Below are positions 1,561-37,332 of a stretch of 64,000 nt of DNA, piece after piece (the stretch's first letter is position 1; each line of letters starts with the position of its first letter). Both the position numbers and the translations under genes were made by a program. This DNA is from Nymphaea colorata. Its lineage: Eukaryota; Streptophyta; Magnoliopsida; Nymphaeales; Nymphaeaceae. The stretch lies in the NCBI RefSeq assembly GCF_008831285.2, contig NC_045138.2, positions 38,059,115 through 38,123,114 on the forward strand. The letters are read 5' to 3'. The notes beneath the pieces are model-generated. The model searched no databases. It saw nothing but the letters and a program-made list of their open reading frames with translations, and had not been told where the DNA came from.

Positions 1561-3661
1561 GTGAATTCATCTGCTCTTTTTTCTGTGTTCGCGTGCCCTT
1601 CCTCCCCTGAGGGGTTTCCCGTCCACTTTTCTTTTTCGAGCCGTGGTTTACTTAGTAAGATTACCAAACCGCCCTTGGTTAATTTCAGAATTCCTCACTT
1701 TTTCTTCTTGCGATGAGGTTAGTGGAGATTTTGATGCGTGTTTATCTCGTTTCCTTTCCAAGTCAAATCCTTGACTAGAGATTGGTGCCACTGATTCCCG
1801 ATCGCATTGTCTATTTGTGTGGCCACGCTCAACGTTCCACCTTTATCCCATTTTTTCCGGATAAAGTGGTTCTAGGTCCGGCATTTCTAGAAATAAGTTA
1901 CCGAAAAATCTCACCCCCTGTCTGGTCTGGACGGGCCGAACGAACGCGTGGTGCTAGGTCAAAAGTCGGCTCGAGTTCGACACGTGGCTCGCGTAGACGA
2001 CCATAAGATGAAAGTAGAAACGTGATTTTGGTATCTGAGTTAGCTTTTTAACACTCGTTTTGATGCCAAAATCAGGTTCTCCACTCGGTTTTGGTGTCAT
2101 CCAAACGGAATCTAGGCGTGGTCGATGATAGAACCGAGTCCGGAGTGAAGCTGAAGTCATTTTTGGTCATGGTTCACTCGTTTCAGTAAACTAACTCGAC
2201 GACGAACTTGTTATGAGCTAAGTTAAACTTGAGCGACCTGGTTGCTCAGTTCAAATAGCCCTACGCCCGCAGCACCTACAAGTTTTTATTAATAATGAAA
2301 CACATGCTTGGATTTGTTTATGTTGATCAAAAAGCATAATCGCCATCATTTCTTGAACAAATCTGAGTATAGGTACGTTCTCTCTTTGCAAGAACACCCA
2401 ATTATAGCAAGCCCCGAGATTCGGAGTAGGAAAAAGATAGAAAAATTAATTGAATGAACAATGAAATATTTTGAGGGACTTCGAAAATTAGTACCCCGAA
2501 CCGTCCTTATTTCTTTCATTAGTTTTTCTTTCGTTCAATAGAATAGCACCCTCCACACAAGTTGTCTTTTTGTTGGAACTCGCTGGTTCAACTCGGCTGC
2601 CCACCGGTGAAACTTGTATGCTATTTAGAATACATAATCAAACATGCAGCGTGCAGGCTTCTTAATTTGACGCATGACCACAAAGGAATAAAAAACATTA
2701 AGCAACAAAAAGGGCTTATATAATTTCTTTTAAATGGTTTTTTATATAAAGATCATGAAACAAATTTTAAAATGATACCAAGTAATTGAAATCCATAAAG
2801 TTGCTTTTAGTGTGATAATCATGCCGAACAAATGACTCTCTTCGGTTTTTCCTGCTCTCTAATCTCATGAGCTCTAAATCTTCACCAATTCTTTTGACTC
2901 CTCATGTATGAAGGAGAAGGGGATACCCAAGTTAGCTCTAGGCTGCAGGTCTGAAGAATGGTTGAGCTTTGACTCCTTTAGGAATGAGGGGCAATTTGGA
3001 GTGTGTCTAGACGTTTTGACGTTATTACTGGCAGAGGACTGCGGCCCTCTCTATTTTGTGTCACATGAGAAGCTTTTGTCCTATTTCGGGAGACCACCCT
3101 TTCATCGCTAACCCCTAGTAGCGAATGTCAAGCGAAGGTCCAGCGAACTAGAAAGCAGCTGCCTTTCACTTTCACGTGTCTCAGTGACAAGGCTTCCTTT
3201 TCACCTCCCCAGAATCAGATCACGGCCATGGATGAAACTTGTCATGGTATGGATCCGATTTCAACAATCCAGCAGGTCCTTCAACCCTACGTTTTGTCTT
3301 GATCCTTATCGAGCGGGCCAAGAGGCATAAACTCGAAAAAGTTTTGGACCAAAAAGACAGGTTTTGTTAGGTCACGACTTCGCGATGGTGTACAATGTTC
3401 ATGTATGAACTGATAGTTAGGACGTGTAGAACATGTACAGTAGAACATGTACACCATTGCGAAGTCGTGATCTAACAAAACTTGTCTTTTTTGTCCAAAA
3501 CTTTTTCGAGTTTATGCCTCTTGGCCCGCTCGATAAGGATAGACAAAACGTAGGGTTGAAGGACCTGCTGGATGTGACTTCTTCTGAACGTTTTATTAGC
3601 CTCTGTTTCACTTGGCATAAATGCTTATTGTTCAAAGGGATTGAATTGGTTGGTCTTGCAG
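1561..3661 (+). other. Candidate leader intron of the PHO2-like gene
   Basis: The block runs from the possible donor at 1561 to a good acceptor (ggtcttgcag) ending at 3661. I see no coding content. It holds the long inverted repeat at 3268-3572, and its part from about 2745 onward is the section also found in the decayed copy near 10283. The intron assignment is inferred from splice signals and from the usual PHO2 gene layout. Confidence 0.3.
3268..3572. repeat. Long near-perfect inverted repeat in the PHO2 leader region
   Basis: Arms of roughly 135 bp (about 3268-3404 and 3440-3572) are near-exact reverse complements. The outer ends read tccagcaggtcc and ggacctgctgga, and the gap is a few tens of bases. 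A single-stranded copy would fold into a long hairpin. A weak relative of the left arm (ggccaagagg followed by ttggacca) is seen in the decayed copy near 11130-11165 without its inverted partner. This suggests the left arm is older and the right arm arose by inverted duplication at this locus. I see no clear target-site duplication, so a transposon origin is not shown. Confidence 0.85.
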
Positions 3662-3913
3662 GTGTTGTGGAGGTGGTGATGAGGTCAAGGCATGATACTT
3701 ATCAGCCGCAGGATGGTTCGGAAGGGACCGTGATAGTTTTCCATACAACTCCGATTTACTCAGATCATCTTCTTGGAGGAAACTCTTTCAGCTCGCTGTG
3801 TGCAGTGTGTTTGTTCTCCTCCCCAAGCTTTGAGGTTGATTGATTCAAGGGAAACCCACGTTGTCCAACCTGGGTTTTTCTGTCTGAAAAACCATTTCAG
3901 GAATATTTGCTTA

Positions 3914-3934
3914 CAGGGCAAATCTCCTTTGGCA
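3914..3934 (+). promoter_or_regulatory. miR399 target site 1
   Basis: A 21-nt stretch is complementary to the plant microRNA miR399 along its whole length as I know that sequence. It begins CAGGGCAAAT and ends CTCCTTTGGCA. In known plants miR399 is made under phosphate starvation and lowers PHO2 mRNA through several such sites in the 5' leader. Finding this immediately upstream of a PHO2-like reading frame supports both the site and the identity of the gene. Confidence 0.92.
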
Positions 3935-3994
3935 TCTTTGTTTTCTATTTTTCAACAGTTTCTCTGTTCCAGATAGAACCCTTCGAGGTTTTAA

Positions 3995-4015
3995 CTGGGC
4001 AATTCTCCTTTGGCA
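3995..4015 (+). promoter_or_regulatory. miR399 target site 2
   Basis: This second site is 81 bp downstream of the first. It begins CTGGGCAATT and ends CTCCTTTGGCA, differing from the ideal complement only near the 5' end of the target and in one central A/T choice found among miR399 family members. The half that pairs with the microRNA seed is perfect. Arabidopsis PHO2 has five such sites; I see only these two intact ones here. Confidence 0.9.
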
Positions 4016-4495
4016 TTGTTACATCCCACTGGGCGTCATCAACAATCAAAAAATTATAGTGGAGATTTCAACTTGGTCGCTGTATCACACAGCTTGACCG
4101 GTTCGAACAACCTGAAGACAGTCCCTTGTTTGAGGAATTTAGTACTTCTGCTTTCGTTAAGATTTTCGAGGTTCTCTCTCCCTCCCTCTCTCTCTTTCGC
4201 TTGCTTGTTGCTTAAATGTTACTACGCCTCTTGGGCACCTATCTCCATCAAATGAACACCGTTTGTCAAAAATTATGAAAATTTCTCGAACTGTCTGTAT
4301 CATCTGCATAAATCTCCACGTATGAAACAATCTTTTAGTTGAGTAACTGAGATGGAGCCTGATTGTAGGTTCTCGTGTGTGCGTGTATGCATGCTTACGT
4401 GTTGCATATTTATATTTGATTAATGATATTTCCCCGGTACAGGTAGTAGGAGTATTTTGTTGGAAGTATAACAAAAAGAAAAGGGGGGAAAAAGC

Positions 4496-7400
4496 ATGTT
4501 TACCATGTTCAGCGATCTGGGAAAGGGTAACGTCACAGATAGCAGTGACAGTGAGGATTTTGATGATATCGAGTCCATGTACGAAGGACAAGCACGGAGC
4601 ATATTCTCAAGTTTAGATGAAAGCATTGGAAAGATTGACGACTTCCTGGCCTTTGAGAGGAGCTTTCTGCATGGTGACATTGTTTGCTCTGTGGCGGATC
4701 CGTCAGGACAGCTGGGCAGGGTCATTGATATAGATGTTAGTGTGGACATAGAAAATGCTTATGGAAAAACAATAAAGGACATAAATAGCAAGGACCTTCT
4801 CAGGATCAGATCTTTCTGTGTTGGTGATTATGTAGTTCATGGCAGCTGGTTAGGTGTTGTGGATCGAGTAATAGATCTCGTGACAGTTCTTTTTGAGGAT
4901 GGAGCTATGTGCGTTATAGAAAAGCCTGATCCAGCAATCCTTGTGCCAGTTCCTCCAAATTTATTAGAAGATTCTGAACACGTTTACTACCCTGGGCAAC
5001 GTGTGAAAGGTAGACTTCCAAGTGTTTTTAAGAATGCAGGATGGTTGCGTGGTGAATGGAAGTCAAGCCGACGTGAATGTATGGTGAAGCACGTGGAGGT
5101 GCAATCCGTATATGTTAATTGGACTTCTGCCCTGACAGTTGGCTGTGCTGCCAGTGTGCCTCCACCTAGATGCTTGCAGCATCCAAAGGGACTTACCCTT
5201 TTGCTCCCTTTCCCACATTCAAATTGGCAGCTTGGTGATTACTGCATATTGCAATTTAGGAATAGGGAGCAGAACCATGGCACGGGGGTTCATGGTGCTC
5301 ATGAGTGGCTGCTGAAGTGTGGCAATATGCTGCAGAAAGAAGGCATTGATCTTGAGCAGGCTTTCGTGATAGTGAAAAGAAAAGTTAAAGTTGATGTCTT
5401 GTGGCAGGATGGTAGAGTTTCCGCTGCTTTAGATTCACATGCACTATGTCCGGTTGATAATATAGGTGATCATGACTTATGGCCGGAAGATGTTGTGTTG
5501 GAGAAAGGATCTGATGAGGATGGACAAGATTCAGGTAGAAAGCTTGTGGGAATTGTTCAAAGTGTTGATGCAAAAGAACGGACTGCTAGGGTGAGATGGA
5601 TGAATAGTGAACTAGATGCGACTGCTGCATCAATAGGGAAATTCGGTGAGGAGATTGTAAGTGTTTATGAGTTGGTTGAACACCCTGATTACTGCTACTG
5701 TCTTGGTGACATTGTTTGCAAATCTCAGAACCAGAGCCTAGAAGATCTAAAACTACTTTCCAGTGCACCTGATACTCTTTTGTGTGATACCTTTGGTAAA
5801 GATGTATTTTGTAAAAGGCAGATTGGCGAGAACTGTAAAGACTTGTCTAAATCCTTCACATCTTGTATTGGGCATGTCAGCGGATTGAAAGATGGAGCCA
5901 TTGAGGTGACCTGGGCAAATGGTGCTGTTGCAAAGGTATGAACATATTCTATCTTCTGTTTCTAGTGTAGTATGTGTGATGTTCGTCAAGTATTTAGATT
6001 TTCAGTGAACAAGTTTGATTTATCCACTCTCTAATGGATGTTCATGTTGAATCTTATCTGTATCTTCTCTGTCTTCATTTAATTGCAATTTTCCTGATTA
6101 CTACTTTTTAGTATGGTTGTTCAATCTTCCTCTATAGAAGGAAAATTTTGTAATACTGAACTACCATTTGATGCAAGCTTTCAGGTTGCCCCCCATCAGA
6201 TCATGGCCGTTGACAGAGATGAGGAGCAGGCATCGACGGACTTCCTTCAAAATCAGAATGTTGAAGTTAACAGTGAGGAATGCGGCCTTGAAGTTGACAA
6301 TTGCAGACAAAATAAGAATGCAAAAAAGGTGAGACATAATCCTGTTCTGCTTCTCCTTTCATGTTCGTTTGTATTGAAACTGTATCAACAGGACATTCCG
6401 GTTGACTTCTAAGAACATGAATTGATTATTCAGGACAATTTGGATAAGACAATGCTGTGTTCCGGAAATAATAACTGCAGCAACTATTCATGGGAAACTG
6501 ATGCTCTTTCAATTCCTCGAGCAGCTATTGGGTTTCTGACAAATATTGCTTCTAGCATTTTTGGTTCACGAGGTTCCACTTCATTCTCAAGCAAAATAAA
6601 ATCCACTTGTTCTAGTCATCTTGACAATGATTACCATCTTGAGATGAAGGATGCGGTTATGGAAGATGAGAATGGCAGTGAGGACCTGTACAAACGAAAG
6701 ATTGAGGAGCATCAAATTGCAGCAGTCAAGGCTCACCAGCTGATGTCTGGTGAATCATCTTTATTGAGAGGGATGGGTGGGGAAGAGCATACGGAAGTTA
6801 AACATGAGCAACTTCCACAGTTAAGAAGCAGCGAGGAATGTAGAAAATTTATGAAATTTGACATCAGCCAAGATTATTCAGATCATCATTTTCGGGATGA
6901 AGAGTCAAATCCATCTCAGGTAAAACCCAAATAACAATGAGCTAGATTTTTTTTTTCTTTCTGTCTATGACATGTTACAGAAAGTAGTTTCTCATGTTGG
7001 CAGAGAAGGGGTTGGCTTAAGAAGATAAGTCAGGAGTGGAGCATCTTGGAGAAAGAATTACCTGGTAAATCATATAACCTTCTCGTCGTTATCGATATTA
7101 TCAGCTAAAAGTTTGTCTTCTTTTTTGGCCACTATTTCCATATTAGTGGTCCTTATTCTTCCATGAAATAGTAATTCTAGGTGCTTGTTAAGCAGTATAT
7201 ATGGTTGGAATGCATGGTACGGTCATATTTTACTGATCCAAAAGTTACTTCCAGGGTTTGAGTATGAGATGTACCGAGGTGAATTAGTAGTTTATCATCC
7301 ATTGGTGCAGTATTTGGCCTCATCAGCCTTCCTGTTAAACTTGGTCCTTGATGCTATTCATGGTTGCATTAAATGATCATTTATTTCATATGGATGACCT

Positions 7401-8922
7401 TGCTTTTAATTATTTCCTATTGCCTTGGACAGATTCTATCTACGTAAGAATTTACGAAGGGAGAGCTGATATCCTGAGGGCTGCCATTTCTGGAGCATCT
7501 GGGACACCTTACCATGATGGTCTTTTCTTTTTTGATATCTTCCTTCCTCCAGATTTTCCATCCCAACCTCCCGTAAGTGTTTTTTCCATGTTCTGGGATG
7601 CATAAGTCAAATCTTGATCACAATATCATAAAAACTGGTCATTATAGCATCTAGTGTGCTTTTTTTCCTTCTTGGAATCATGTGATGATGGTTCCATTTT
7701 TATGTTACTTTTAAGCATGCTCATCTTTGTTAGTTAGATGGACTGCAATGGCGGTCATAAGAAAGTCAAGCCTTGTTATCATTACCTTGTATAAGAGTGA
7801 AAATTGATTGCATATTTGTCATGAATAAGTTCGTGGCTAATTCTGTTCTTCACAAAGTAAGCTACTGGTACATTGGAAGGATTTTTTTTTCTTTTTGCCT
7901 ATTTGAGGTCAGCCTGATCTTATACTGCTCATCATGGAGAAGGAAGATTAATGTTGGTTCTTATTAATGCAGTTGGTCCACTACATCTCTGGAGGACTTA
8001 AGTTGAACCCAAACTTATATGAGACTGGGCATGTGTGCCTGAGCCTCCTGAATACATGGACAGGCGAAGGCAGTGAAGTTTGGAATCCAGCAAGCTCGAC
8101 CATTCTTCAAGTTTTGGTGTCACTTCAAGCACTCGTACTTAATGCTAAGCCATACTTTAATGAAGCTGGATATGACAAACAAATTGGCAAAGTGGAAGGA
8201 GAGAAGAATTCTATTGCTTACAACGAGAATGCATTTCTTCTTTCATGCAAATCAATGTTGTACTTGCTACGGAAACCACCAAAGGTATGTGCTTTCACTA
8301 TGAATTTGCAGTTAAAAATGACACTATTTGAAAGACTTCAAAATTTTTGAACTGTTTAATTTGGGTATTCCTTTGTAAAACACTGCCTTAGAAAAAAATC
8401 CTTGGTTCAGTCCAGCTCAAGAGAAGCGCAAATATGTTGTTTCTGAGTTTGCAGTTCAATATTGTGCAAGGTGAATGACCCGTAGCTAGTTTACTTGAGT
8501 TGCATTAAAAGCCAAGGCCAATAAGATTATGCACTTTAAGCTCAAAGAACCAAGTCGAGGAAGTTGACTCCATATTTTGTATTCTGAAAAGTTGAACATC
8601 GATGATGGTAGAGACATTGTTTAAATATATGGGGTGATGCTTAACTGTTGTAACCAAATAAATATTTTTTCTTGTGCAGAATTTCGAAGCCCTCGTGGAA
8701 GAACACTTTAATAGGCGTGCACGGTCAATGCTGTTAGCCTGTAGAGCATATATGGGTGGTGCTCAGGTTGGCTGTGTCTCTGGGGATGGAAAGATCCTAA
8801 GTGGTGGTGGTAGCAGTTCTGCTGGTTTTAAAATAATGCTGGCCAAGCTTTTCCCGAAGCTTGTGTCAGCATTCAGCGACAAAGGGATAGATTGCAGCTT
8901 GTCTATTAATACTGAAAGCTGA
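4496..8922 (+). CDS. PHO2: PHO2/UBC24-like ubiquitin-conjugating enzyme E2
   Basis: Seven coding exons: 4496-5935, 6185-6328, 6434-6919, 7004-7064, 7433-7572, 7973-8284, 8680-8922. All junctions are GT-AG and phases close to 941 aa; Arabidopsis PHO2 is about 907 aa. The N-terminal two thirds is the UBE2O-type region (IFSSLDESIGKIDDFLAFER, YYPGQRVKG). A charged helix follows (KRKIEEHQIAAVKAH). The UBC domain starts near residue 691, with TPYHDGLFFFDI and the catalytic cysteine Cys779 in NPNLYETGHVCLSLLNTW. By family knowledge it acts on endomembranes and sends PHO1 and PHT1-route proteins for degradation, limiting phosphate uptake and loading. The start is the first ATG of the long frame; a second ATG lies three codons on. 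The two miR399 sites lie about 0.5 kb upstream, and an intron acceptor (ggtacag) sits near 4442. The frame is intact. Confidence 0.95.
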
Positions 8923-9042
8923 GCACTTGAAGCAGGCATTGTTTTTTAACTAAAACTAAGGGAGTTTATTATGAGCGTGAATTGTATGGTTTCTCTAGCT
9001 AGATGGTTTGATTGGATTCACAAAATACGAGGAAAAGAAAGC

Positions 9043-9048
9043 AATAAA
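9043..9048 (+). terminator. Candidate polyadenylation signal of the PHO2-like gene
   Basis: AATAAA lies 121 bp past the stop codon in a U/A-rich 3' flank. Plant signals are loose, so this is only the best candidate. Confidence 0.35.
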
Positions 9049-10015
9049 AGTAAAAATAAAAAGAGGCAAGACTAATAGGTGGTGTGCTCTTCCCTCTTAA
9101 GTCTGTATATATGAAAACTTTGTTGCTTGTGCCTGTACAATGAAGGACATAAAAACTATTGTGTTGCTGGGTGTGAAGAGGCTGGATCATCATCTGTGGT
9201 ATTTAGCAGGTTGACTTTAGGCGAAGTTGTTTGTTCTGCACTGAGCCTTCGACTGCAATCTCCAGTAGTAAGTTGACTATAACTAAAGATTGAGTTGTTA
9301 GATGTTATCAACCACCCATCTGTTCGGATTCTTTTGTTATACCTTTCAATATTTTTTGGTTTATTTCAACCAAGGAAAGGAATAATTTGGAAAAGCTCCT
9401 GTGTTATTCATATTTCTTAAAACCTTTACCCGAGTTAGTGCAGTTCGCAAGTAACATCTTCTGGTATGTTCTTGCAGTAACCATCTCCTGGTATGTTCTT
9501 ACTTTTGCATAGTGTATGGTTGTTAATGATTGACAGTTAGATATACAAGTGACGGTCTGCAACAATCTGTGAGTGCGTTTTTGTGTGTTTGAGTTGCTCG
9601 CGTACCTTGTGTGTGGGGTGGGGGAGGGGGACGAGGTGGCACAGAAAATGTTAAAAAGATATTTGAAATTATGCGTTTACGTTTACCTTTTATCTTCACA
9701 TTATGTGCACTGCTTACTGCAAATAGTTTGGATTCGAGACGAATCTTTCCTTTCCAAACTTGTTTGATTAGATTTTAATATAATTAGATTGGGATATGGA
9801 CTCAAGTTCAATCATTATTATTTATAACCAAATTTGGATCCAACTAGCATGAGATTCGAGATGTATAACTAACCGAGTAGAAATTTGTCGGATCCTTACA
9901 GGGTATTTTGCTAATAAATTGCATGTCAAGATTGAATCATACCTGACTAGATTGATCCAATAATTGGATATATTGGATTCATTTACATCCCTATCTTACT
10001 GGGGTTGAACCTTTG

Positions 10016-10020
<5 letters not shown>

Positions 10021-10072
<52 letters not shown>
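10021..10072. repeat. (TC)26 microsatellite
   Basis: An uninterrupted TC run of 52 bases. It sits about 200 bp before the start of the decayed PHO2 copy. Confidence 0.98.
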
Positions 10073-10074
<2 letters not shown>

Positions 10075-11218
10075 GTTGTGATGGCATTGAGAGACTGTCT
10101 GGTTGAAGGGTTCCTCTAAATAGGATTGTTTTTAAGTAGATTGCTTTTATTTCTACTTCTCGTCAATAAGAAAGAGTACTGGTGGGACTGATCAAAAGGA
10201 GGAGTCTTTTTTATAGGGCTGGACAAGAATGAAATTTCAGATGAAGTGGAAGTGACATAGAGTGAAAACTTTATAAATTAGGAACTCATAAAGATCATGA
10301 AACAAATTTTAAAATGACGACAAATAATTGAAATTCTTAAAGTTGCTTTCAGTGTGTATTTGTACTTTGTCTGTTCATGCCAATTAAATGATTCAAATTT
10401 GTTTCTTTGGGCTCTCTAATTTCATGAGCTTTGACTTTCTGCTCTTTTTTCAACTCCTTATATATGAAAAAAGAGGAGGGGAAGCTCTTAGTTAGTTCTT
10501 GTTATATGTATGAAGAGTTGTTGAGCCAGTTCCTTGTAGAATGAGGAGGAAGGACAGTGTCTAGGTGCTTGATGAGGCTATTATGAGAAAAGCTCTTCGG
10601 CCCTCTATGTTGTGCCACCTAGAGAAGCCTTTTGTACATAATTTTGAGAGACCACCCCTTAATGTCATCACTAACCTTAGTAGCTACCTTTCAGTTTTAT
10701 GTGTCTCAATCTCAGAGCTTCTCTTTCAAGACATCCGATAAAGTTGGAACGATACCGCCATAGGGCTTCATTTTTGCCTTGCTAGATCACCGCCATGGAT
10801 GAAAACCTAAGCCTGGGCACTGCGTACCCAACGGGTACTTGGTACTCTGCCCGATAAGTTGTCATGCAGCCCGATGGGTTTGATCAATCAGACCATTTTA
10901 TTTAAATATTATTTATTATAATTAATTATATTTATATATTATTTTATATTAAAAATATATTTTTTAGTGTTAATCGGGTCCACTAGAATTCCAGTTCCAA
11001 GTCAGGCCGGGCCGGCCCCATGCATAGGCCTAATGAAACCTGTACTTGTATTGTATATCGGATTTCAACAATTTAGAGCCTAATCACTTCCAACTGGTCC
11101 CTGGGCCATAGCTATGGTCTGGATCCAAATGAATGAGGCCAAGAGGAATGAAATCTTGGACCAATGGAAACCCACGTTGTCTAACTTGGGTTTTTCTCAT
11201 TTCAAGAATATTTGCTTG

Positions 11219-11239
11219 CATCGCAAATCTCCTTTTGCA
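11219..11239 (+). promoter_or_regulatory. Degenerate miR399 site in the decayed copy
   Basis: The flanks align with site 1 of the real gene (aatatttgctt... and ...catcttt). Three positions differ: two near the target 5' end and one opposite microRNA position 4. The last should strongly weaken pairing. There is no central bulge of the kind seen in IPS1-type target mimics. Confidence 0.7.
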
Positions 11240-11289
11240 TCTTTTTCAATCGTCAACTCTGCGTTCCATAGAGAACCTGATGCAGCGAT

Positions 11290-12430
11290 TAAAATTCTTC
11301 TCCCTAATCGTCGCAGAGATGCAAAGTAAGAAAAGCAAACTAATGAAAATAAAGAGAAGAATAAGAAAGAGGAAAGGAATTAGGGCTCTACAATCAAATG
11401 ATATTTCATTTTCCTCAAACGAATCCCCTTAAAATGGGTTTTTCCAAATGGTTTTGGATCTTGCATCCAAATACAAATGCAACAAATGATAATCAAAAGG
11501 TTCAAACTTAACCAAACAAAGTGAAAGCTCAAAATAAAACTAAGCACCCTGTGCGTTAGGGCACAGGGCAATCGGACGATGGCCCGATTCCGGTGTTCCG
11601 GCGGACGTCCTGTTCATACCATTGATGGGGGGAAAGCTCATTCTTAACAAATTTTCAAATGTTATCACAGGAAATGCTAGATGGTGCAATTGCGACTAAA
11701 AGGAATTTTAATTTGAAAAGGTTATGAGCACCGAACTGTTGCCTGAGTTTTCTTCAGGAACTGACCACTACAGGTAAATCTATTCTAGTTAATCATCCAT
11801 CCCATCCTACTTCTTGCCCAACTACAAATCAACTATGCTAACTAAGTAAATTGCTTGGGAGAAATATGCGTTGGTATCAATGCTGAAAAATATATGCTCG
11901 ACATTAGAAGCTAAAACTCTTTGCACATAGAAAACCAGAGGACAGACAACAGGGAAAGGAAGAGATGTTACCTGGACCTCACCAGCTTTCAGGCTGCCAT
12001 GAACATGATGCTTCTTTACGGAAGCGCAAAGAAACTCCAAACCGTCCCTGCATAATGAGTAAATTGATTTCCAGTAGGAATATGCTGGGGAGAAAGGCCC
12101 CCTTCATCCTAAACAAGTTGCGCCGTGATGGTGGGGAGCCTGTTAAGGAACTTCAACCTGCACGCGTTTTCTTTCACTTCCTTCCATTGTGCAGGGGTAC
12201 CCCTTCTAGAGAGGGCTATTTGCAGGCACCTATGCCAACTATTGTTGTTGGTTATGACCTTCTTGATGCCTCCAATTTCTCCCATTCTAGCGACTTACTG
12301 AGAAAAACCAACTCTGCATCATCTTTTCTTCCTCCCCTCCCTGTACTGACGCCTCACAATTAATCGTTGTCCTCTGTTGGTTTTTTCCTAGCTGCAAAAA
12401 CTACCACTAAGTTCATTTCAGCTCTTGTTG
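11290..12430. other. Unrelated block inside the decayed PHO2 copy
   Basis: I see no counterpart of this stretch in the functional PHO2 leader. It has an open frame of 132 codons at 11965-12363 (+) with no recognisable family, and a short G+C-rich patch near 11555-11630. It may be an insertion or captured DNA. I did not find terminal repeats or a target-site duplication. Confidence 0.4.
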
Positions 12431-12542
12431 GGAGTCATCAATCTTCTTGTTCTTTCATCCAAATTTGAGAATGTGCTGTGTGCTTGTCCTTCGTACATTG
12501 ACTCGATATCATCAAAATCCTCACTGCGACTGCCGTCTGTTC
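12431..12542 (-). repeat. Inverted copy of the first PHO2 coding exon (antisense arm)
   Basis: These 112 bases are the reverse complement of PHO2 coding positions 4535-4646 with scattered differences. They include an exact run of 27 bases and, one mismatch away, an exact run of 19. The sense piece of the same exon follows about 155 bp later (12698-12814), giving an inverted repeat able to form an imperfect stem of about 110 bp. Confidence 0.88.
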
Positions 12543-12697
12543 TTCCTTCTATGTAGCCACGCATGCCACATTTTTTTGGGAGCTTCATCCATAATCTTCA
12601 GATTAATGATATTTCCCTGGTGCATGTAGTAGGAGTATTTGATCGCAAGTACAACAAAAAAAAGCGAAAAAACATGTTTACCATGTTCAGCGATCTG

Positions 12698-12814
12698 GAA
12701 GCAGGAAATGTTATCGCAGTGATACTGAGGACTTTGGTGATTTGGAGTCCATGTATGAAGGACAAGCACGCAGCATATTCTCAAGTTTGGATGAAAGCAT
12801 TGGGAAGATTGATG
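12698..12814 (+). repeat. Sense arm of the PHO2-exon inverted repeat
   Basis: This is the part of the decayed copy corresponding to PHO2 4530-4645. It pairs with 12431-12542 across a loop of about 155 bases that contains the copied intron end and start codon. By eye it differs from its partner arm more than that arm differs from the functional gene in the central segment. Confidence 0.85.
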
Positions 12815-12815
12815 C

Positions 12816-14640
12816 CTACTACCGTGAAATGAAGCAGCAAAAAATCAGTGTTCTGTTGTAAAGGCAGAAAGGAACGGGTTCTAAGAAAAAATTATCTTTA
12901 AAAGGTCTTTCTCTTATCCTTGAGAAATTCTTAGCAAAAATGAAGAAACTTTTCATTGCAAAATTTTTCTGTTGAATGAGAAAAGTCTTGTCTAGGCCTT
13001 ATGAGTTTCTTGAGTTTAAAGAGTCTTCGACTAATTAGGGTTCTAATGGCTTTTTGAAGATTCGGAAGTGCTTAGTCGCCCTTTGATTTGCTAAAAAAGA
13101 AGAACAGCAACATCACCTAACTCGATATGGCGAAGCTTTAGGTTGGATCGTAATAACGACAAGTGTCCTCTACTTTATACTCATCAAGCGTGTTATATTT
13201 CACTTCTCAAAACAAAGGAAGTTACTTGTTCTTTAAAAAAAAAAAAAAAACTCATTCCTAATGTTCAAATTAAAAATTTGAATATGGGATATTGAGTATA
13301 CGATATTTATTTAAAAATATTTTCGATCCAAATCAGGATCCGGATGATATTTACTTACTTTTAAATCCGATAAGATGTAAATCTGAATCATGTCTGATTT
13401 CTTAATCAGATATCATTTTTTTCATATCCATTTTTTAAATTTAAGTTATTCCTATTAGATTTATTGACATCCCTGGTGTCACATGCGTCAAATCAATGAT
13501 ATTTTTATCTGAAACTGAATCTACCATATACGGGTAATCTGGATCGGGTGAATTCGTTCAAAATTGTTATGCATAAATAATTTTATTTTATTTTATTTTT
13601 CTATCCACAGAAGATGTAGATCTTGAGGATCACTAAAGGGGTGTTTGATGAGGCTGAAATTATGGAATTGTAGAATTGAACTTTTTATTTTTTATGAAGT
13701 GGGAATTGTATTATCAAACAAAGAATTTTGATTTTGGAATTATAGGCTCATGTTTTAATTAAAATTTTTGTGATTAGAGATGGAATTATGATTTCAGAAT
13801 CATGGAATTTTTTTCATATCTCTATAAAGCATATGTGATGATAATTTTGATTCATCAATTCTAGAATGTTATTTTTTATCGCAGTCATTTTCAATTGTAG
13901 AATCAAAATTGTGAACTGCCAAACACAATGAAAAACTAGAAGCGAAATTTTCATTCCAATTTCAATTTTAAGTGAAATTTTGTTTCTAGAAATTTAATTC
14001 TAAAATCAAAATTTAAAGAGCAATATTATAATAACAATAATATAATAATAATGTAATAATAATAATAATATCATTAATAATAATAAGGAACGATAGCAAG
14101 CCCCAAAACTGAAAGAAATGAATGAGCTTTATCGATGTCTTCCAAAGCGACCATGGACGAATCTGAGGACTTTCCGCTTTTTACCCAAACCCTCCCATCT
14201 TAGTCCTCCCCTAATCCTTAATTTCATGTTCCCCTTTTATTTTGTATAGTTATTTAAGAGAGCAGCATACTTTTCAATAATTAAAAATCGTCACCCAAAA
14301 AAATAAATTCACACGCCCAAATTTAGTTTTGATTGGGCAAAATTATACCCTTTTGGCTCCTTTACTTAAGAAAGAAGTATTAAGTTGCACCATCGTTAAC
14401 GAGTTCATGTTTGGCCGTCTTACCTTCATTCTTTTTTTTTTTTTTCTCCTTGGAATGTTCATTTGGAAAAACTTTTACCGTGAACTTTGAAACAATGTTT
14501 GCATCGGATTGATTAAGCAAAAATTAGTGACACCATATGGAAATGTTAGCTTTTGTTGGTTGTATCTGAATAATAAAAAGCGTTCAGGTAACGTTTTGCG
14601 TAGCTTCCCCGTTACTTTGTGAGTCTCGCCAACTAAGTCT
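12816..14640. other. AT-rich intergenic DNA upstream of the second E2 gene
   Basis: There is no coding content. It contains a possible MITE (13637-13930), a TAA/AAT-rich stretch near 14025-14090, and presumably the promoter of the following gene. A TATA-like tatttaaga lies near 14250. Confidence 0.45.
13637..13930. mobile_element. Possible MITE with imperfect inverted ends
   Basis: The left side reads ggggtgtttgatgaggctga and continues with attatggaattgtagaattg. The right side, read on the other strand, has cattgtgtttggcagttcac and then a related attctacaattg. Many short plant non-autonomous elements begin with a GGTGTTTG-like word. The ends match only partly and I could not define a target-site duplication. 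Confidence 0.35.
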
Positions 14641-14865: not shown

Positions 14866-17800
14866 ATGTCTGCTTCTTCCTCCTCCTTGCCTGGCGACGT
14901 GTTCACCGTCGACGAGGACCCCAATCACCAGAAGCGGAAGAAGAATATAGTAAGAAGCCCATAATCAAATTCTTCTCCTGCGATCCTTCACTCTGTTGAT
15001 CAGTATTTTTTTTTTTCGGTTGTTTCGGGGATGATTCCGTCCTCACTCTGTTGATCAGTATTTTCCTTTTTCTCGGTTGTTTGGGTGATGATTCCGTCCG
15101 ACGATCTTTTTGCGGACCATGCGGGTTATTCTTTCTCTGTTTTTTTTTTTTTTGGGTGAGAAGAGCGTCCTTCACATCCCTCCGTTTAGGTTTGCCTACT
15201 GGCGAAGGAATTCACATTTTTCTTGACTTTTGTGGTCTTCCCTTTTCGTTGCGTAGTGAATTATGGTGGGGCCGTTGGTCCATACTTTATTTTTTCTTTT
15301 TCTTTTTCTTTTTTTCTTAACCTTTTCCGTCAAGTGTTTTTTCCTTCTGTCTTTTTTCTTTTCTTTTTTTTTTTTAACTGCAGCGTGCTTAGGTTCGAAA
15401 GTTGGTTATCAGTACAGAATGGCGTGCTGAATTCACTGTTTGTCAGGTTCAGTCGAGTTGGTGGACTTGAAGTCTTATTGGGGTTTCTCTCCGTTGTATC
15501 GCTATGTTGATCTGGGTTTCTATTATGCACATACTTTAACTTTGATCTTTCACCGCTGTTGACCTCTTTTATTGTGTTGCTCTTAACTCTATTTTTGCGG
15601 TGTTCAGTTCCTTGTTCTTAATCTTTGTTTATTCTGTGTGTGTGGGGTTCGTCGTTTCCTTTACCTTAATCGTCCGAATGAGATTTCATCTGTTCTGGAT
15701 GTTTTTTGAGGGTGTTTTATGTCGGTGATTAAGCAGTACGTACGCGGTTACTAACTTTGCGAAGTGGTCTGTTCATATTCTGAATCCAAGCAACCCGTTG
15801 GAGGCAGTAGCCGAGCCGCTCTTTGCTAGTTTTGTTCATAATTACTAATATTGAACTCCGCATGCAAGGAACAATGCCGTGATGATCTAGGTTTCAGGAA
15901 AATTTAGGAGAAAAATATTGAAGATATAAAAAATTAAAGAAGGATAGAATAATAAAAATGGAATTAAAAATGTATAAAATATAGAAAACAATTGAAAATG
16001 TTATACCTCTCTTGTTAAGTAGTCATACTACAACAACAAGATCGTGACTATATTGTTTACAAATGTCCCCTGTTACCTGCGTCAGAGATTGATTAACCGA
16101 AAAGGGTTTTTTTTAAATACCAGGGATGTCTATGGTCATTGTTTTGTTTTTCTATCCCTATCTTAAGCCTTTCAGAAGGTACCGACTTGCCAATTTCTGA
16201 AAAGGACAACTTAGGAGTTGAGAGACCCATTTGGTTTAAATGTTGCTTATGCTATGCAATGATGCTTATACTTTATCATGGGATTAGAAAATTAATCATA
16301 AGACCGCATTTTGATTCTAAATTAATGGAAGTAACTAATAGACCATCTTTTGAATCATGAATCTTTGCTGTTACGTGATTGTGATCCACTAAAAGCTCAT
16401 ATTCGTCAATATAAATAGCTATGCATAAAGCTAACCAGAGGAGAAAGAAAATGAGCAGAAGCCTAAACATAAGGAAAATAAAAATGAATAAGGAAATGCA
16501 GTTCCGATAAAATTGACAAGAAAATTTCAAACCACCACAGACAACTAAAATCATAGTATCTGGGGTGATCCCCATCCACTTATCTTTGGTAGTTTAACAA
16601 TCACGTACTTGCTGATTTCATCTGCATGGGCTTGTAAACTGGAACTTGTAACTGTTATCAACCTGGTCGTTTTGCAATTGCCAAGACTGAAAGTCTGGAA
16701 TTATGTTGTACAGAAAGAGATCGTGCTCTTTTTGTGCATAACAGATTCAAATCATTAGGATTTATGGACTTGATTGTGCCAATAATCACTATAAAGATGC
16801 AAGCTTGTAACAATTTTTAAGCAACAAGGTCAGTGAAACTCTTCTGCTAACTTCCACGAAGTAACAAAATGACTGAATTCTTTAGTCTTAATATCTATCC
16901 CGTAAAGGGCAGTTAATATAAACAAAACTCTCCCATGTCAACTGAAGAAAAGTGATGAAGGCTTTCATAAATATCTCACTGTAACCATGCTAGCTAATGA
17001 TTAAAATTGTGTTACCCTATCATGAATTTTATAGTAAACTTAAGTTATCTTCCGCCTTCTAGGGATCCATGATTTCTATTTTCGTCATATTTTGCTCAAG
17101 GCATTAGAACTATGCTCAAGCAAGTCAATATATTCATATACCTATCATGACTAATATAACTTGTACCTTTCATGTCTTGTTTTAGCAATAAAATCACAAT
17201 AAGAAAAGTTCTTCAAACTTAATTTGATAACTCACTTTTGTAGTATGGTAATCCTTTCTGCACAATGGCACTTCTTCAGAACTGTTCACATTGGGATATT
17301 GATATTTTATACTTATGCAGGGCGAGTGTGGAGCTTTCACTATTCCTCCAGATGAGGTTATTCAGATTGACGATGATGACGTTCCTCAAAATGGAATCAT
17401 AATTGGTGGGAGCAGTGCTTTTTCAATGTTTCAGGGGAAGAATGAACCCATGGTGCTTCCTCATGGTGGAGAGAAGGTTACACCAGATTTTTTATCCTTT
17501 GGCATGGCCATATGTGTTTGGGCTGCTCCGTCTAATTGAGATATTTGCTGAAGAAACTAATGTTGTTCTACTTGCTTCCTTTCTTTCAGAGGGATGTTGC
17601 AAAACTAGCAGAGAGTTCCTGGGAAAAAAAAGTAGCTGTTCTTCTTAGTGATTACAACTTGTCATATCTGGATCTGGACCCTTGTGATGGCCAAAGACTT
17701 GTGGGCAGTCAACCAACAAGCACAATCTCAAATGATTCTGATGAATACATGGGTGTGGAAGAAGATTATGAGGTTGCATATGTTTCAGATGGCGATTCTT

Positions 17801-20043
17801 TATCTCCTTGGACAGCGGATATGTTTGCACATGAGCCTGATCCAAGCTCATCAGCAGGACCAAGCTGTCCAAGTCTGATAGAGCAGATTGAAGCAAACAT
17901 TGCGAGATTTAGAGAATTCAAGCAGTTCGACACTGTTGTTGATCATTCAGATAATCACTTCGATAAATTACAAAATCCAGGGAAGTTCTCTCTTTTCAAT
18001 ACAGATAACTTACATCCTCAGGTGGGCAAGGAACTTTCAAATGTTTCTTCCTCCTGGGTCTTCCATCAGTGACTGATTGTATATGCACCTTTCTCAGCCA
18101 CGGCAAATGACTTCAAAAGAATGGACAAGACACATACAGCAGGAGTGGAGCATCCTGGAGAAGGATTTGCCAGGTACGACATAGCCATATTTTATCTTAA
18201 AAATGTTACGTGTTAGTTATGTATTTGCTAGACTCTTAGTTTACATTTTCTATTTTCATTTGTTGCTTATTTAGTCATTTTTTAATGTCTTCTTATTAGT
18301 TCCTCTTTTATCTTATTTTTACCTAATTTTTAGGATTTCTTTTTTTAAAAAAAAATTGCTGAGATTATCCTGAGAAACATAACTTTTTTCATATTATACC
18401 AGAGAAAAACTTTGCCGTTTAATAACTGTAAATGATATATGTCTCCATAGCCTATAACCTGATTAAATGGTTAAGGAAATAACTCATCGAGCATAAAAGT
18501 AAAGTCAAACCGTTTGAAACATAATCCTGCAGCTTTTTTGGCAACTCTTAATCCATGACTCTGTCAACCATTTACAAATTTGCAAGAGCTTGATGTTCTT
18601 AGTTCTTACATGAAAATGCTACCACTATCTGTCATAAGCATCATGGAATTTCCTAAAATGCTTGATCCTTACGTATGGACAAGTGTTGAAAACTTGAAAT
18701 AGCATGGCTGATTATTTTTATATTCTTGGGACAACCATTTTTTTTACGGAACTTCTTATTTTCTAATTTGGCAGATACAATATATGTTAGAGTGTATGAA
18801 GAAAGAATGGATCTTTTGAGGGCTGTCATTCTAGGGGCTGCAGGAACTCCATACCATGATGGTCTTTTCTTCTTTGACATTTCTTTCCCACAAGACTATC
18901 CATACAGCCCACCGGTAAGTTTTTTCTTAATAGGGTGCTCTTCATGTGTGCTTTTGTTATCATTTGCAAGATTTTAACGGCTTGTTGACTGATTGTTTTG
19001 CAGTTGGTTCACTATCACTCTTTTGGCCACAGGATAAATCCAAACTTGTATGAATGTGGCAAGGTCTGTCTTAGCCTTTTGAATACTTGGCATGGCAGCC
19101 GTGCAAACAGTGAGACATGGATACCAATGAGATCCACTGTTCTTCAAGTTCTGGTTTCTATCCAAGGTCTAGTTTTGAATGAGAAACCTTACTTTAATGA
19201 GCCTGGATACGAAAGATCAGCAGGCAAGAAAGAAGGTGAGAGCAAGGCGAGGGACTATAACGAGCAGACTTTCCTTTTATCTGTGAAATCTATGTTACAC
19301 CTTCTGCGGAATCCCCCAAAGGTTGGTTCAGACTGCATAAATGTTTATTATGTCTTGCTGAATTTCTTTGGAATTTTATTGCATAATTTGTTGGAAGAGC
19401 TTCAGATGTTTGAAATCTGTTTATTGCCTGCCTCTGACTTGAATCGTTATGATATCTAAATAGCTATGTGGTTCTCGAGCATAATAGTGATGTGCAAATT
19501 GGCAGCTAGCCTGATTTTAATGGATGCCAACACTTGGAGGAACTTGATATGTGACTAACTGGAGGTGCCTCCATGTCCCGCATTCATCAGTCTTCCCCTT
19601 GCTGGCTGGATCTTTCAGTTGCTTGATTAACTTTCTAGAAGCAGCTTTGCTTATCTAGTTCTAATGATGTTCAGACTTCTGGAATCTTCTCTTTGAGGGT
19701 TGATGATGAGAGAGATTAAGTTCTTTTTTTTTTCCTTTCTATTTATTTTTTCCAGCATTTTGAATCATTTGTTGCCGGGCATTTCTATGTGCATGCACCG
19801 TACATTCTGGAGGCATGCCAAGCATACATGCAAGGAGCACAGGTGGGTTGTCTTGCAGCAGGCGGCATCCAGGATGTGGATCAGGGAGACAAAAGTTGCT
19901 CTGAAGTTTTCAAAGCATCACTTTCTGATCTCTTCCCAAAGTTGGTGACAGCATTTACTGATAATGGAAGTGATTGCCAGAAATTTGTCCCCAAGCCAAA
20001 AGAACCACGCGAGCGGAAACTGATAGTGAAAACCTGGGACTGA
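14866..20043 (+). CDS. UBC25/UBC26-like ubiquitin-conjugating enzyme E2
   Basis: Seven exons: 14866-14949, 17321-17476, 17590-18021, 18098-18173, 18775-18914, 19004-19321, 19756-20043. Phases close to 497 aa. An acidic, disordered N-terminal half leads into a UBC domain with QQEWSILEKDLPD, GTPYHDGLFFFDISFP, and the catalytic cysteine Cys318 in NPNLYECGKVCLSLLNTW, preceded by Cys314. The C-terminal block (HFYVHAPYILEACQAYMQG) is typical of the plant UBC23-26 group. The missing UBE2O-type N-terminus and the PHYHDG-type core place it with UBC25/26 rather than PHO2. Its substrates are not known to me. The boundaries of the last four exons match those of the PHO2-like gene (shared 140-nt exon). 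The first exon is the least certain part: it is joined over a 2.4 kb intron only by phase and by a good donor (ata then gtaaga). Confidence 0.88.
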
Positions 20044-31179: not shown

Positions 31180-34100
31180 TACACACATGTCAGCCCCTCC
31201 AAGAAAAAATTGTATCTGTGCCCCTGACTACTTTCCGCCATTTAGTACTACATTCTATTGTTGTTTGGAGACAGACAATCTGAATCTGTTCATTCATAGA
31301 AGCTACGAGGCAAGAACAGAAACACTGCCAATGAAAGACTGATTCAGGTGTCAAGACCACCCATCAACCATGGTTGGTTTTTGCATATTACAGCAATGTG
31401 GATGGACTACATCCACATCAGCCTTTAGATATTGTTCACGAAGTGTTCAGATGTCCTAAAGAGTTTTGCTTCATCCAGTGATAAATTTAGCAATATCCTC
31501 AGACATAAAAGTATAAAATAAACTTTTATTCATATTAAAAGGTTGGCACTAGTACATAAGTAACTCCAAGTTTAAGAGGATGAATCTTCAGTATTGGTCA
31601 AAGTACCTGCATCCATACTTGCCAATTGCCCATAACAAGCAGATTGAATAGTGTCACCATTCCATTTGGATAATCATTGAAATTGAAAAGTAGATAGCTA
31701 CTTGTATTAAGGAAATATGATGACCAACAATGCTGCTTTTTAAAATAATATTGTAACACCTTCATCACATAAGAAAAGAACTAAAATCGAACATTAATCA
31801 TCATACAGCCCTCACTGACAAGATCAATGAACAAAGTAAAATGCAGTTCTAAAAATGGATCAGCCAGCCTATAGCAACTTGAGAAGGATACTCATCATCC
31901 CAAAGGTCTGTGCTCTCCAGTTTAGGGTTCCCTGAATAGACAAGGCCGCCAAAGAGCTGAACAGTGAAAAAAAAAAGTCTGTATAAGCAATATTAATTGA
32001 TCGAATTACTTCAGAGATGAGAAAAAATTTATCCCTGGAGTTTGCAAAACTTTCAAGAGTCGCATCATATTCCTGTCAAGCTAACAACAACTCATACACA
32101 GAAAGCGCTAATATAAGCAGAGTTGTCTCACTGCATCTAGCACCAATTTTGGCTAAAAGAATATTGTGAAGCATGTACGATCCATGAAGTACTATTAACA
32201 GGAGCACAACATAATTCAGTTGCTAACCTGACAACAATTTTCATGTAAGCATATGAAGCAAAAAGACCCTGCCAATACATTCACTGAATATTTGCCTATT
32301 TAAAATCATGCAAAGCCATACTAATGACACAAAACATACATTACTTACAAAGTGACCACTTGGAACGGAAAAAATGGCAAGATCATTTCAGATAAGAAAA
32401 AGCATATCGATGAAAATACACTGTGAGGGTTTACTATAGCAATATTTCCAAATTGTTGTTTTATGAAACAAAACCATGTTCACAAGAAGAAGTCAGATGC
32501 CTTAAGTAATCATAAAGAAGATTCTCAATTTTCATAATGCAAACATATCAATCTTGACGCTCCTCTCCACAGGATTTCTGACATCAGATTCTTTCTTTCC
32601 TGATTGTAGTTGTTTCCTTAAGATAACAGTTCGGGATGATGCTGATACACATTTGTAAAATTTCTTTCTCACAACAACCTCTTTTCTCTTAGGAACTATA
32701 TATCTACATCTATATTTCTCAAATTTACTTCAGTGTTGTCTTTATTTTTCACATCTCTCACTCCTACGACAAACTTCGCACCGATTTGTATGGCCATTTA
32801 TGCCCAAAACAAAAAAATTCAGTTCCATATATTTTTTTTGGGAACCTTTTTGCAAGATGAGATTTTCTTGGGAAAGTATTGGGAAAGCTGTGGCATTTTA
32901 GAACTTAAAAGCAATGTTGTAAAAAGTGCAGTGTTGTACGTATCGTACGATACGAGCCCGTATCGTACGATACGTATCCTATTGATCACATTTTACGATA
33001 CGATACACCCCCCGTATCGTAGATGAGGGGTGTATCGGCCCTATATCGCACGTATCGTGCGATACAAGGCCCGTATCATACAATACGGGGCGATACACCC
33101 TGTATCGCACGATACGTGCTAATTTTTTAGGAGACATTAAACAACCAAAAAGTAAAAACCCTTCGATGCCCGACCCTTCTCCTTCCTCTCTCTTGACTTT
33201 CAACAGTTCCGGTGGGTGTTTGGGCAGCTACAGACCGACGGCGACCGACAACCAGTGACGGATGGAGAATGGCAACGGACGGCGAATGAAGGGATATGGG
33301 TGAGAAACCCTCCCTCTGCTCCGTTTCAGAAGATAGCGAGACGAAGGGAGGACCGTCGAGCCGTCGATGGGAAAGAGAGAAGAAGAAAGCAGGGCTGCCC
33401 GGCGGTCTGCTCTTCTTTCTTCTCCGCCCCCTTCTTCTGCCTTTACCTCACTTCTGCTGCCGCTTGATGCGCCATTGGCCGTCGCCATTTTCGTTGTGCT
33501 GGGCATAGAGAATAAGCTGGCGGTGCGTGAAGGGTAACAGTGATAGGTTGCATCGGGCGGCTCCATGGCGGGAGAAGGCGATCGGTGCCTCACCCACCTT
33601 CACATAGAGGAATGAGCATTTGAAAGCCCTAATTTTTCATTTAGCTCGGCCTCCCGGTTTTGCATATTCAAAGTGGATCTTACATCCAAATCTGATAGGA
33701 TCCAATGAAAGTGATGTGCATAATTTAGACATAAGTCTCCATTCGGCTTTGAATTCCAATGGTTTGGATTTGAAAGTCTTCCACATTGAAATTTCATGGA
33801 TTGAAGAACTTATTATTTTTTATTTTTACTGATTTTTTAAGAATTTTTTGAATTATTTTTTGATTTTTTCTTGATTTATTATTATTATTTTTTTAAAAAA
33901 TGCGATACGGTTACGATACGGTTACGATACGTTACGATATTTTACGATACGGCGTATCTTAAAGCCCGATCGATACCGGTTACGATACGTTTTTTACAAC
34001 ATTGAAAAAGTGTATCATAAACCGTATCGGTCTGGCTTTAAGATACGTCATATCGTAAAATATCGTAACCATATCGTTTTTTTTTTAAAATAAATCAGAA

Positions 34101-37100
34101 AAAAATTAAATAAGAAAAAAATCGAAAAAATCATTAAAAAATCAGTAAAAATCAAGAATAATATGTTCTTCATAAAAAACATGTTTGACAGAATGACAGA
34201 CTTATTATTGCTATAAAGTTACGGTTTATCATTCGTAAACATCAAAATTCATAACAATATCAATCTAGAAAGCACAAGTCAACAATTACATAACGTATAT
34301 CATAATTTCATAACCATAGATTCATAAGTCATAAGGTCCATAAAGTCTATGAGATACCACATCAAAAAGCAAGTTTGAAATGTTATATATTACATCACAA
34401 GATGATAATGGAATTGTGAAAATGTTCAATGTCAACACATATAAAATGAAAGCACTCTCGACCCTCATTCATAATCTTCATCATACTCATTCCCATCCTC
34501 ATCTCCATCTTCATCTTCATGATTTAAAAAACCTCTTTCCTCCCAACAGGAATAAGCCACCCACGCACAAATCCATAGTTTAATCGATGATTTCATGGTG
34601 AAAATCGATGATTTCATGGTGGAAATCGATGATTTTCCTCCAAGGCGGCACAATCTCTAGGTTAGAAATGAAGAAGAGGCGGGTTTTTATGAAGAAAAAT
34701 CGAAAAAGGGGGGTTTGGGCCCCCCTTTTTTGAAATCAGCCCGTATCGCACGATACGGGGGCCTGTATCATATGTATCGTACGATACAAGTATGATACAC
34801 CACAATTTACGATACGGGAAGTGTATCATATCATGTTTCCTAAACGATACGATACGTATCATACGATACGTACAACACTCCTTAAAAGTATAAAAACAAA
34901 GAAAAAGTTACAAGATAATAGGTTTTCTAATTACTTTCTTGCAAAAATCATTAGAGAAAATCAAACGAAATTCATGTTTAAAAACGAAGCTTCCTGAATG
35001 CCTGATAAAAATATCAGAAATATAACAGGATAATATCACAGTAATTTTCTTTCAATGATCTTCTAAAAAATATTGGGATATTTCTAGCTGGCTGCAGATG
35101 ACCACAGCAATGGGGTATTTTCAAAACATTCTTGAAGCACATAGAAATTGTTACTTAAGCTACTCTATAAGAAATTTCCCAAACAAAAGGCCGGACAATA
35201 AAAGAAGAACCAGTATGGCACTAGTACCTGCAACCCAAGAGAGCAAGAAGCACATAGAAATTGCTACTTAAGCTACTCTATAAGAAATTTCCCAAACAAA
35301 AGGCCAGACAATAAAAGAAGAACCAGTATGGCACTAGTACCTTCAAATTTACGATACGGGAAGTGTATCATATCATGTTTCCTAAACGATACGATACGTA
35401 TCATACGATACGTACAACACTCCTTAAAAGTATAAAAACAAAGAAAAAGTTACAAGATAATAGGTTTTCTAATTACTTTCTTGCAAAAATCATTAGAGAA
35501 AATCAAACGAAATTCATGTTTAAAAACGAAGCTTCCTGAATGCCTGATAAAAATATCAGAAATATAACAGGATAATATCACAGTAATTTTCTTTCAATGA
35601 TCTTCTAAAAAATATTGGGATATTTCTAGCTGGCTGCAGATGACCACAGCAATGGGGTATTTTCAAAACATTCTTGAAGCACATAGAAATTGTTACTTAA
35701 GCTACTCTATAAGAAATTTCCCAAACAAAAGGCCGGACAATAAAAGAAGAACCAGTATGGCACTAGTACCTGCAACCCAAGAGAGCAAGAAGCACATAGA
35801 AATTGCTACTTAAGCTACTCTATAAGAAATTTCCCAAACAAAAGGCCAGACAATAAAAGAAGAACCAGTATGGCACTAGTACCTGCAACCCAAGAGAGCA
35901 ATAAATACACAGTACACAAAAGACGGTTCCAAGGTATGGCATCAGGCTCGGAATAAGAGTAAAAAATGTAGCCACAAATGCCCTGTAGCGGTGCACATGC
36001 ATCAATAGTCTAGTTAAGCGCAGCATCCTTGCAATAAGAAGGTAACGGATCCTGAAAGAAGAAAAAAAAAGATATATCAAGAATTGCAGAACATATTTTG
36101 AAAGGAGGAAAACAGATATTTCAGGACTTGCAGTCTCGTAGCTAGCAGTTAATGTAATTAGAACAATAAAAGTTTTACAGATTTTTCTTTCAGTGCTAGA
36201 GATAATGGACCATTTATTTCATGAAAACATCTGTAACACGAGTACGGCTCTAAAAGAGCAGTACCTGTATCGTACTGGTACGTACTTGGATACATCCTAG
36301 GTATGTGTCTGACCATATCGGATACGGTCAACGTACCCGTGTACGTATCCGGTATTTTTCAGACTTGGTCAAAGTTGACCAAGTCCAACTTTGGATTAGG
36401 TTTTGGTTTTTCCTTTTCTTACTTTTAAAGAAAATGCAAAGCCCTTGACTTTTGTCAAGGGCCGTGCGTATTACCCATTGTAGCAGCAGATGTTTGGTTC
36501 TTTGGTGACGTTGGTGCTCGGTCGACTGGTTTCTGGCAGTTTTCAGTGAGAGGTAATGCCTCTGGCGAAGGACGACACAGCTGCAGTTGTTCACCGACTT
36601 CACCGACTGATTTGGGCATTTTTTTGTTGAAGCTTCATATTTAAGTTTTTTTTTTCTTTTTTGGCGGACTCCCATCATCCAACAGTCTATCTGTTCACTT
36701 CCGGCAGCAGGTTTAGAATCGTCCTCCCTTCTTCTATGACCTACATAAACTACTCTCCTTTTTCTTCTTCGAAAATCATAGTGTTTGCCCTTTCCCTTTT
36801 GTATTTATATGCAACCATATTTTTTTCAGTTAACAGTGCACCGTGCCTTTTTTATTGTTCGATTTGAACCGGTTTCTTCCTCTTTTTTGTTGTTTCATGT
36901 GTGCTCCTATATTATTTTCTGTAACTGACCTGTAACCCATTCCATTTCAGCATTTAGCACTTAGATTCCAGTTCCACATTGCTGAGCTGTGGTTCATATT
37001 TGACTGTCTAAGGGACTGGTCAGTTGTTTGGTAGATGATTTTCCTCATTCCATTGCAACTTTGCAATATGTGCAGCAGATGACTTTGGCATTGATATGTA

Positions 37101-37253: not shown

Positions 37254-37332
<79 letters not shown>

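Follow-up and report, generated by a model that had tools for sequence, protein, structure and literature searches.

Movement of phosphate to the shoot is set by PHO2. In the parts of the literature drawn on here, the gene is described as controlled by miR399 through its leader (PMC4919326, PMC10319397), with five reported miR399 sites in Medicago and six in barley (PMC10319397, PMC4919326). Exon 2 of barley PHO2 carries its miR399 sites according to a figure legend, and one barley miR399 sequence in miRBase is reported to be, in truth, a piece of the PHO2 5′ UTR in reverse complement (both PMC4919326). Secondary siRNAs on PHO2, mapping to the 5′ miR399 cleavage fragment, are described for Arabidopsis exosome/SKI mutants (PMC8860578), and in barley a viral vector used to silence PHO2 changed shoot and root phosphate, with the shoot level raised (PMC3006357).

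The birth of MIRNA genes by inverted duplication of their target is attributed to Allen et al. 2004, as cited in an excerpt of PMC3237417. At the SULF locus of Antirrhinum, small RNAs target Am4′CGT transcripts and the locus is under selection (excerpt of PMC9750854, citing Bradley et al. 2017). In the case of the Drosophila hpRNA loci, hp-ODox carries some 200 bp from exon 2 of tapas, and siRNAs were measured (excerpt of PMC10317233). Among the matches listed in the literature naming PHO2, no title was on a natural PHO2-derived inverted repeat; most subscription papers lie outside this scope, and absence in print is not implied.

The window, that is, the whole stretch of 64,000 nucleotides analysed here, contains a gene assigned to PHO2 and, downstream of it, a decayed copy harbouring an inverted repeat of the first coding exon. 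We read this hairpin, with a probability of roughly 0.6, as a relic in decay that is built like a proto-MIRNA or hairpin-siRNA gene. The features of the gene are as follows.

4496-8922, + strand: PHO2 coding region (UBC24-type, UBE2O-like E2), intact-looking, the presumed target; ORF, Pfam and open frames
3914-3934 and 3995-4015, + strand: miR399-like target sites in the PHO2 leader, with 1 and 2 mismatches, respectively; scan with a 21-nt consensus

The first coding exon of PHO2 (4496-5935) holds an ORF of 481 aa with the Pfam domains UBE2O tSH3-B, SH3-B and SH3-C. It is followed by six further exons with one open frame each, up to the stop codon TGA at 8920-8922; the GT/AG borders of these later exons were read by eye, and their phases were not joined. 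The leader was scanned with a single 21-nt sequence, which we take to be the miR399 site consensus, and the two sites listed are the only ones upstream of PHO2 with at most 4 mismatches to it, fewer than the five and six reported for Medicago and barley. The putative gene name is based on the UBE2O domain make-up together with these miR399-like sites. When the first coding exon was compared with collections of plasmids and of genome contigs, both without plants, there was no match in the former and there were 13 pattern matches, none confirmed, in the latter, as expected. Further downstream and in the same orientation lies a second UBC-type gene (17536-19459) with a UQ_con domain, two stretches of which share 66% and 72% DNA identity with the UBC exons of PHO2.

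The decayed copy starts at about 10288, approximately 1.4 kb beyond the PHO2 stop codon, in the same orientation as PHO2, and comprises the following features.

10288-12820, + strand: decayed and truncated PHO2 copy with upstream/leader sequence, the 3′ end of the intron and the start of coding exon 1; blastn and alignments
11219-11239, + strand: eroded miR399-like site, 4 mismatches to the assumed consensus
11278-12429 (left border approximate), no strand assigned: about 1.15 kb without a PHO2 counterpart, between the leader part and the antisense arm; blastn
11965-12363: ORF of 132 codons inside this counterpart-less sequence, beside the antisense arm
12430-12537, − strand: antisense arm, corresponding to PHO2 4646-4538, with the block 4549-4595 matched with 1 mismatch; blastn and alignment
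12538-12711, + strand: hairpin loop, consisting of about 50 nt of unplaced sequence followed by the intron end and exon start of the copy; alignments
12712-12820, + strand: sense arm, corresponding to PHO2 4538-4646, with clear homology up to 4638; blastn and alignment

Two blastn matches cover the upstream/leader part (10288-10684 with PHO2 2746-3122, and 11162-11244 with PHO2 3846-3939), where the alignment extends to about 11277. A third (12601-12812 with PHO2 4418-4638, 183/221 identical) joins the end of the leader intron to the start of the coding exon. The reading frame of the copy is broken by indels, and homology to PHO2 ends at about 4638, within the first coding exon. The counterpart-less part, 11278-12429, gave no blastn match elsewhere in the window; the ORF inside it, without a Pfam match or a PDB sequence match, may be a chance frame or a captured gene piece.

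The first-pass annotation had proposed that a piece of the first coding exon is present in both orientations within the copy, and blastn, the pairing of the arms and the fold together confirm that this arrangement is real and not due to chance. The antisense arm aligns with the minus strand of PHO2 (12430-12540 with 4646-4535, 95/112 identical, E 6e-30). The exact runs of 27 and 19 bases with one mismatch between them, reported earlier, were recovered at PHO2 4549-4575 and 4577-4595; they form a block of 47 nt with one mismatch, and 27 nt is the longest exact run of the arm. The repeat search paired the arms over 82 nt, ungapped and 84% complementary, with 182 nt between them, and in the three-way register of 109 columns they stand 174 nt apart, rather than the approximately 155 bp given before. 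Folding of 12400-12830, a step suggested with the original observation, yielded −182 kcal/mol on the + strand; 100 shuffles averaged −106.4, and none of them folded as well (z −12.6). On the − strand, 12400-12850 gave −171 kcal/mol (z −10.7).

Standard pairs join the arms at 96 of the 109 columns. In the comparison of PHO2, sense arm and antisense arm, 81 columns are constant, 10 differ in the sense arm only, 12 in the antisense arm only (one a gap), 4 in PHO2 only and 2 in all three; the arms differ from one another at 24/109, one of these being a gap. The sense arm, described earlier as having drifted further, has not done so overall (16/109 differences from PHO2, against 18/109 for the antisense arm), and the statement holds only within the 47-nt block, with 7 mismatches in the sense arm and 1 in the antisense arm by hand count. 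Seven of the 140 21-mers of 12401-12560 match the PHO2 first coding exon perfectly, and 21 match it with one mismatch. No significant pairing was found beyond the 109 columns in tests of extended arms with 500 shuffles each (p: A5-S5 0.31, A5-F5 0.96, A3-S3 0.19, A3-F3 0.37, S3-F3 0.88, A3b-S3b 0.074). Longer arms by way of TGAAATGAA, which both arms share past the end of homology, were set aside as an after-the-fact choice. Rfam gave 0 matches at gathering score across the whole window, and the best sub-threshold match in 12350-12900 was MIR5048, with 30.2 bits against the 160 needed.

A local inverted-repeat scan of the window in 4-kb pieces with a step of 2 kb returned four places of at least 100 bits: the hairpin in the copy, a second PHO2-derived repeat at 3267-3573, a TA microsatellite at 37257-37331 and a palindromic element at 33802-34172. 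The last is a large imperfect palindrome with repeated CGATACG motifs, resembling a foldback element. Direct repeats are also present. Two head-to-tail copies of 543 bp at 34804-35888 are 99.8% identical, pointing either to tandem duplication in the very recent past or to a duplicate made in assembly, and a tandem pair of about 243 bp each at 60030-60514 is 95% identical.

The order of events at the copy, as inferred from the alignments, would be duplication, truncation and inversion. The 5′ part of PHO2 would have been duplicated downstream with its orientation kept and truncated within the first coding exon; as part of this event or shortly afterwards, a stretch of about 110 bp from the truncated exon would have been copied in inverted orientation directly upstream of itself. 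The end points of PHO2 homology nearly coincide in the two arms (4638 and 4646), which is best explained if the inverted copying took place within an already truncated copy or as part of a single rearrangement. In four columns the arms share a base that PHO2 lacks. Each of these falls at a third codon position and is silent under the genetic code, which is what changes in the functional gene would look like. This leaves little sign of change common to the two arms alone, which suggests that inversion and duplication are of about the same age. The first-pass annotation had likened the locus to young MIRNA and siRNA hairpin genes arising by inverted duplication; the strong fold and the extended complementarity to PHO2 fit that anatomy, and "young" fits poorly with arms that differ at 24 columns.

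Transcription of the + strand, whether started in the retained leader or reading through from PHO2, would give an RNA that folds as an imperfect hairpin, and the antisense arm of this hairpin could be a source of small RNAs directed at codons 18-34 of PHO2 (4549-4595). The hairpin appears to have decayed since at about the rate expected without selection. For arms plus loop, the energy went from −244.8 kcal/mol in the reconstructed ancestor to the observed −176.5 kcal/mol, a loss of about 68 kcal/mol. In 600 runs of simulated neutral decay the + strand had a mean of −164.6 (sd 9.7), and 11% of the runs were equally stable or better (p 0.11); the energy difference between the + and − strands had p 0.07. 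The ratio of transitions to transversions is 13:10 in the arms and 62:48 outside them (Fisher p 1.0), meaning that pair-breaking transversions were not depleted. Decay at about the neutral rate makes it most likely that the hairpin survives today as a relic; at most it would be a weak source of siRNA, and not an established regulator.

The transitions between the arms are skewed on the + strand, where 11 keep a G-U pair and 2 break it (two-sided binomial 0.022; the comparison was chosen after seeing the data and is uncorrected). Three of these 11 lie near the alignment gap at 4627-4629, and without them the hand count is 8:2; an unsupervised local alignment of the arms gives 8:1 (0.039). The same classes of transition stand at 33:29 (0.70) in unpaired parts of the copy, where the only polarisation of differences came from treating PHO2 as ancestral, and the arms compare with these parts at a Fisher p of 0.061. 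The control set consisted of ten of the eleven other self-pairing places in the inverted-repeat scan, the one omitted being a perfect 22-base palindrome; it gives 8:10 in sum, with 6:3 at 33802-34172 and four places without any transition. When mismatch positions were shuffled, the 47-nt block with one mismatch was longer than expected (p 0.009, likewise post hoc and uncorrected), and the exact run of 27 nt was not (p 0.106). The G-U skew, the 47-nt block and the strand difference in energy are hints, short of proof, of transcription of the hairpin or of selection on it. As a hint, the skew points to + strand transcription no less than to selection, because transcription-linked deamination on the + strand would give the same pattern.

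These results bear on whether the hairpin may still be active, as a hairpin-siRNA or proto-MIRNA locus whose + strand would be diced into antisense-arm small RNAs that cleave the coding region of PHO2 mRNA. The strength of the fold (z −12.6), the 7 perfect and 21 one-mismatch 21-mers among 140, the G-U skew confined to the arms, the 47-nt block (p 0.009) and the partly retained leader and upstream sequence of the copy all agree with such activity. We nevertheless consider it unlikely, given an energy within neutral expectation (p 0.11) and a strand difference of p 0.07, arms in which transversions are not depleted, the lack of an Rfam match at gathering score and the post hoc, uncorrected nature of the skew and block tests. 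Somewhat less probable is transcription of the copy on the + strand with no selected function, in which case the G-U pattern would come from strand bias. Transcription-associated bias produces C to T and A to G changes on the non-template strand. By reasoning, these two are the very transitions on the + strand that leave a G-U pair in place, whichever arm they fall in, and the 11:2 skew thus needs no selection; however, the unpaired parts of the copy, polarised with PHO2 as ancestor, are unbiased at 33:29.

A different origin of the antisense arm was also weighed, namely its separate capture from the intact gene, for instance in a transposon or filler DNA, instead of from the neighbouring truncated exon. 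The arm does stand at the end of about 1.15 kb without a PHO2 counterpart, and in the 47-nt block it is nearer to PHO2 than to the sense arm. We give this origin the least credence of all the readings, since the two arms share the end point of homology and no pair of repeats brackets the insert (repeats of at least 18 nt, 9000-14500). The preferred reading is still that of a relic formed by local inverted duplication and decaying since.

The intact gene has an inverted repeat of its own.

3267-3573, no strand assigned: inverted repeat in the PHO2 upstream/leader region, left arm 3267-3400, right arm 3443-3573

The alignment of its arms has 127 identities over 131 positions and 3 gap columns; the fold of the region reaches −244.6 kcal/mol (z −29), which none of 100 shuffles equalled. 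The left arm aligns, weakly, with about 11083-11165 of the decayed copy and looks like native sequence by this alignment, and nothing in the copy corresponds to PHO2 from about 3355 to 3845, so that the repeat probably arose after the duplication. By analogy with the barley miR399 sites in exon 2, it may lie in the first leader intron; by eye, candidate borders of such an intron stand near 3247 and 3661. Its arms differ by three transitions, each of which leaves a G-U pair on the + strand, and pooling of both PHO2-derived repeats gives 14:2 (p 0.004), or 11:1 in local alignments (p 0.006), both post hoc. The repeat at 3267-3573 is a better lead than the hairpin in the decayed copy. A broader proposal, which we regard as very unlikely, would have the PHO2 locus carry two self-derived hairpins, the older in the pseudogene and directed at the coding exon, the younger and near-perfect one in the upstream/leader region of PHO2 itself, as a self-silencing layer beside miR399 that is sourced by recurrent local inverted duplication.

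If the hairpin of the copy acts on PHO2, a gene controlled by miR399 would have a second small-RNA input from its own coding exon, and the hairpin would be an intermediate between duplication of a target gene and a MIRNA gene. Engineered silencing of PHO2 in barley raises shoot phosphate, according to an excerpt of PMC3006357, and on that ground a hairpin that is active should make a difference. Even as a relic, it would present such an intermediate caught in decay, and it directs attention to the younger inverted repeat at the intact gene.

With MIRNA genes born by inverted duplication, the hairpin shares two target-derived arms in opposite orientation and similarity that extends beyond a small RNA; both arms of the foldback derive from the target, and PHO2 holds a near-complementary site of 21-24 nt. 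It is unlike them in arms that differ at 24/109 and in an energy as under neutral decay. Membership of the MIRNA or hairpin-siRNA class would need small RNAs and is not claimed. The SULF locus, as far as it is described in the source, is likewise an inverted duplication from genomic sequence, in principle able to silence a gene, and differs in its small RNAs and selection. The Drosophila hpRNA loci also have hairpin arms homologous to a piece of their target; in the source they belong to the animal Dcr-2 pathway, with siRNAs measured. The Arabidopsis secondary siRNAs provide an instance of PHO2 sequence as an siRNA source, a role for which the hairpin is a candidate here, although no hairpin is involved there, as far as the source describes. 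Viral-vector silencing in barley shares PHO2 sequence as its aim, but uses an artificial fragment, and the inverted-repeat construct named in the source was for HvCel1 (PMC3006357). The miR399-PHO2 system has PHO2 itself as its object, with small-RNA control of PHO2 in the sources and two miR399-like leader sites in the present gene; miR399 acts on the leader, whereas the target of the hairpin would lie in the coding region.
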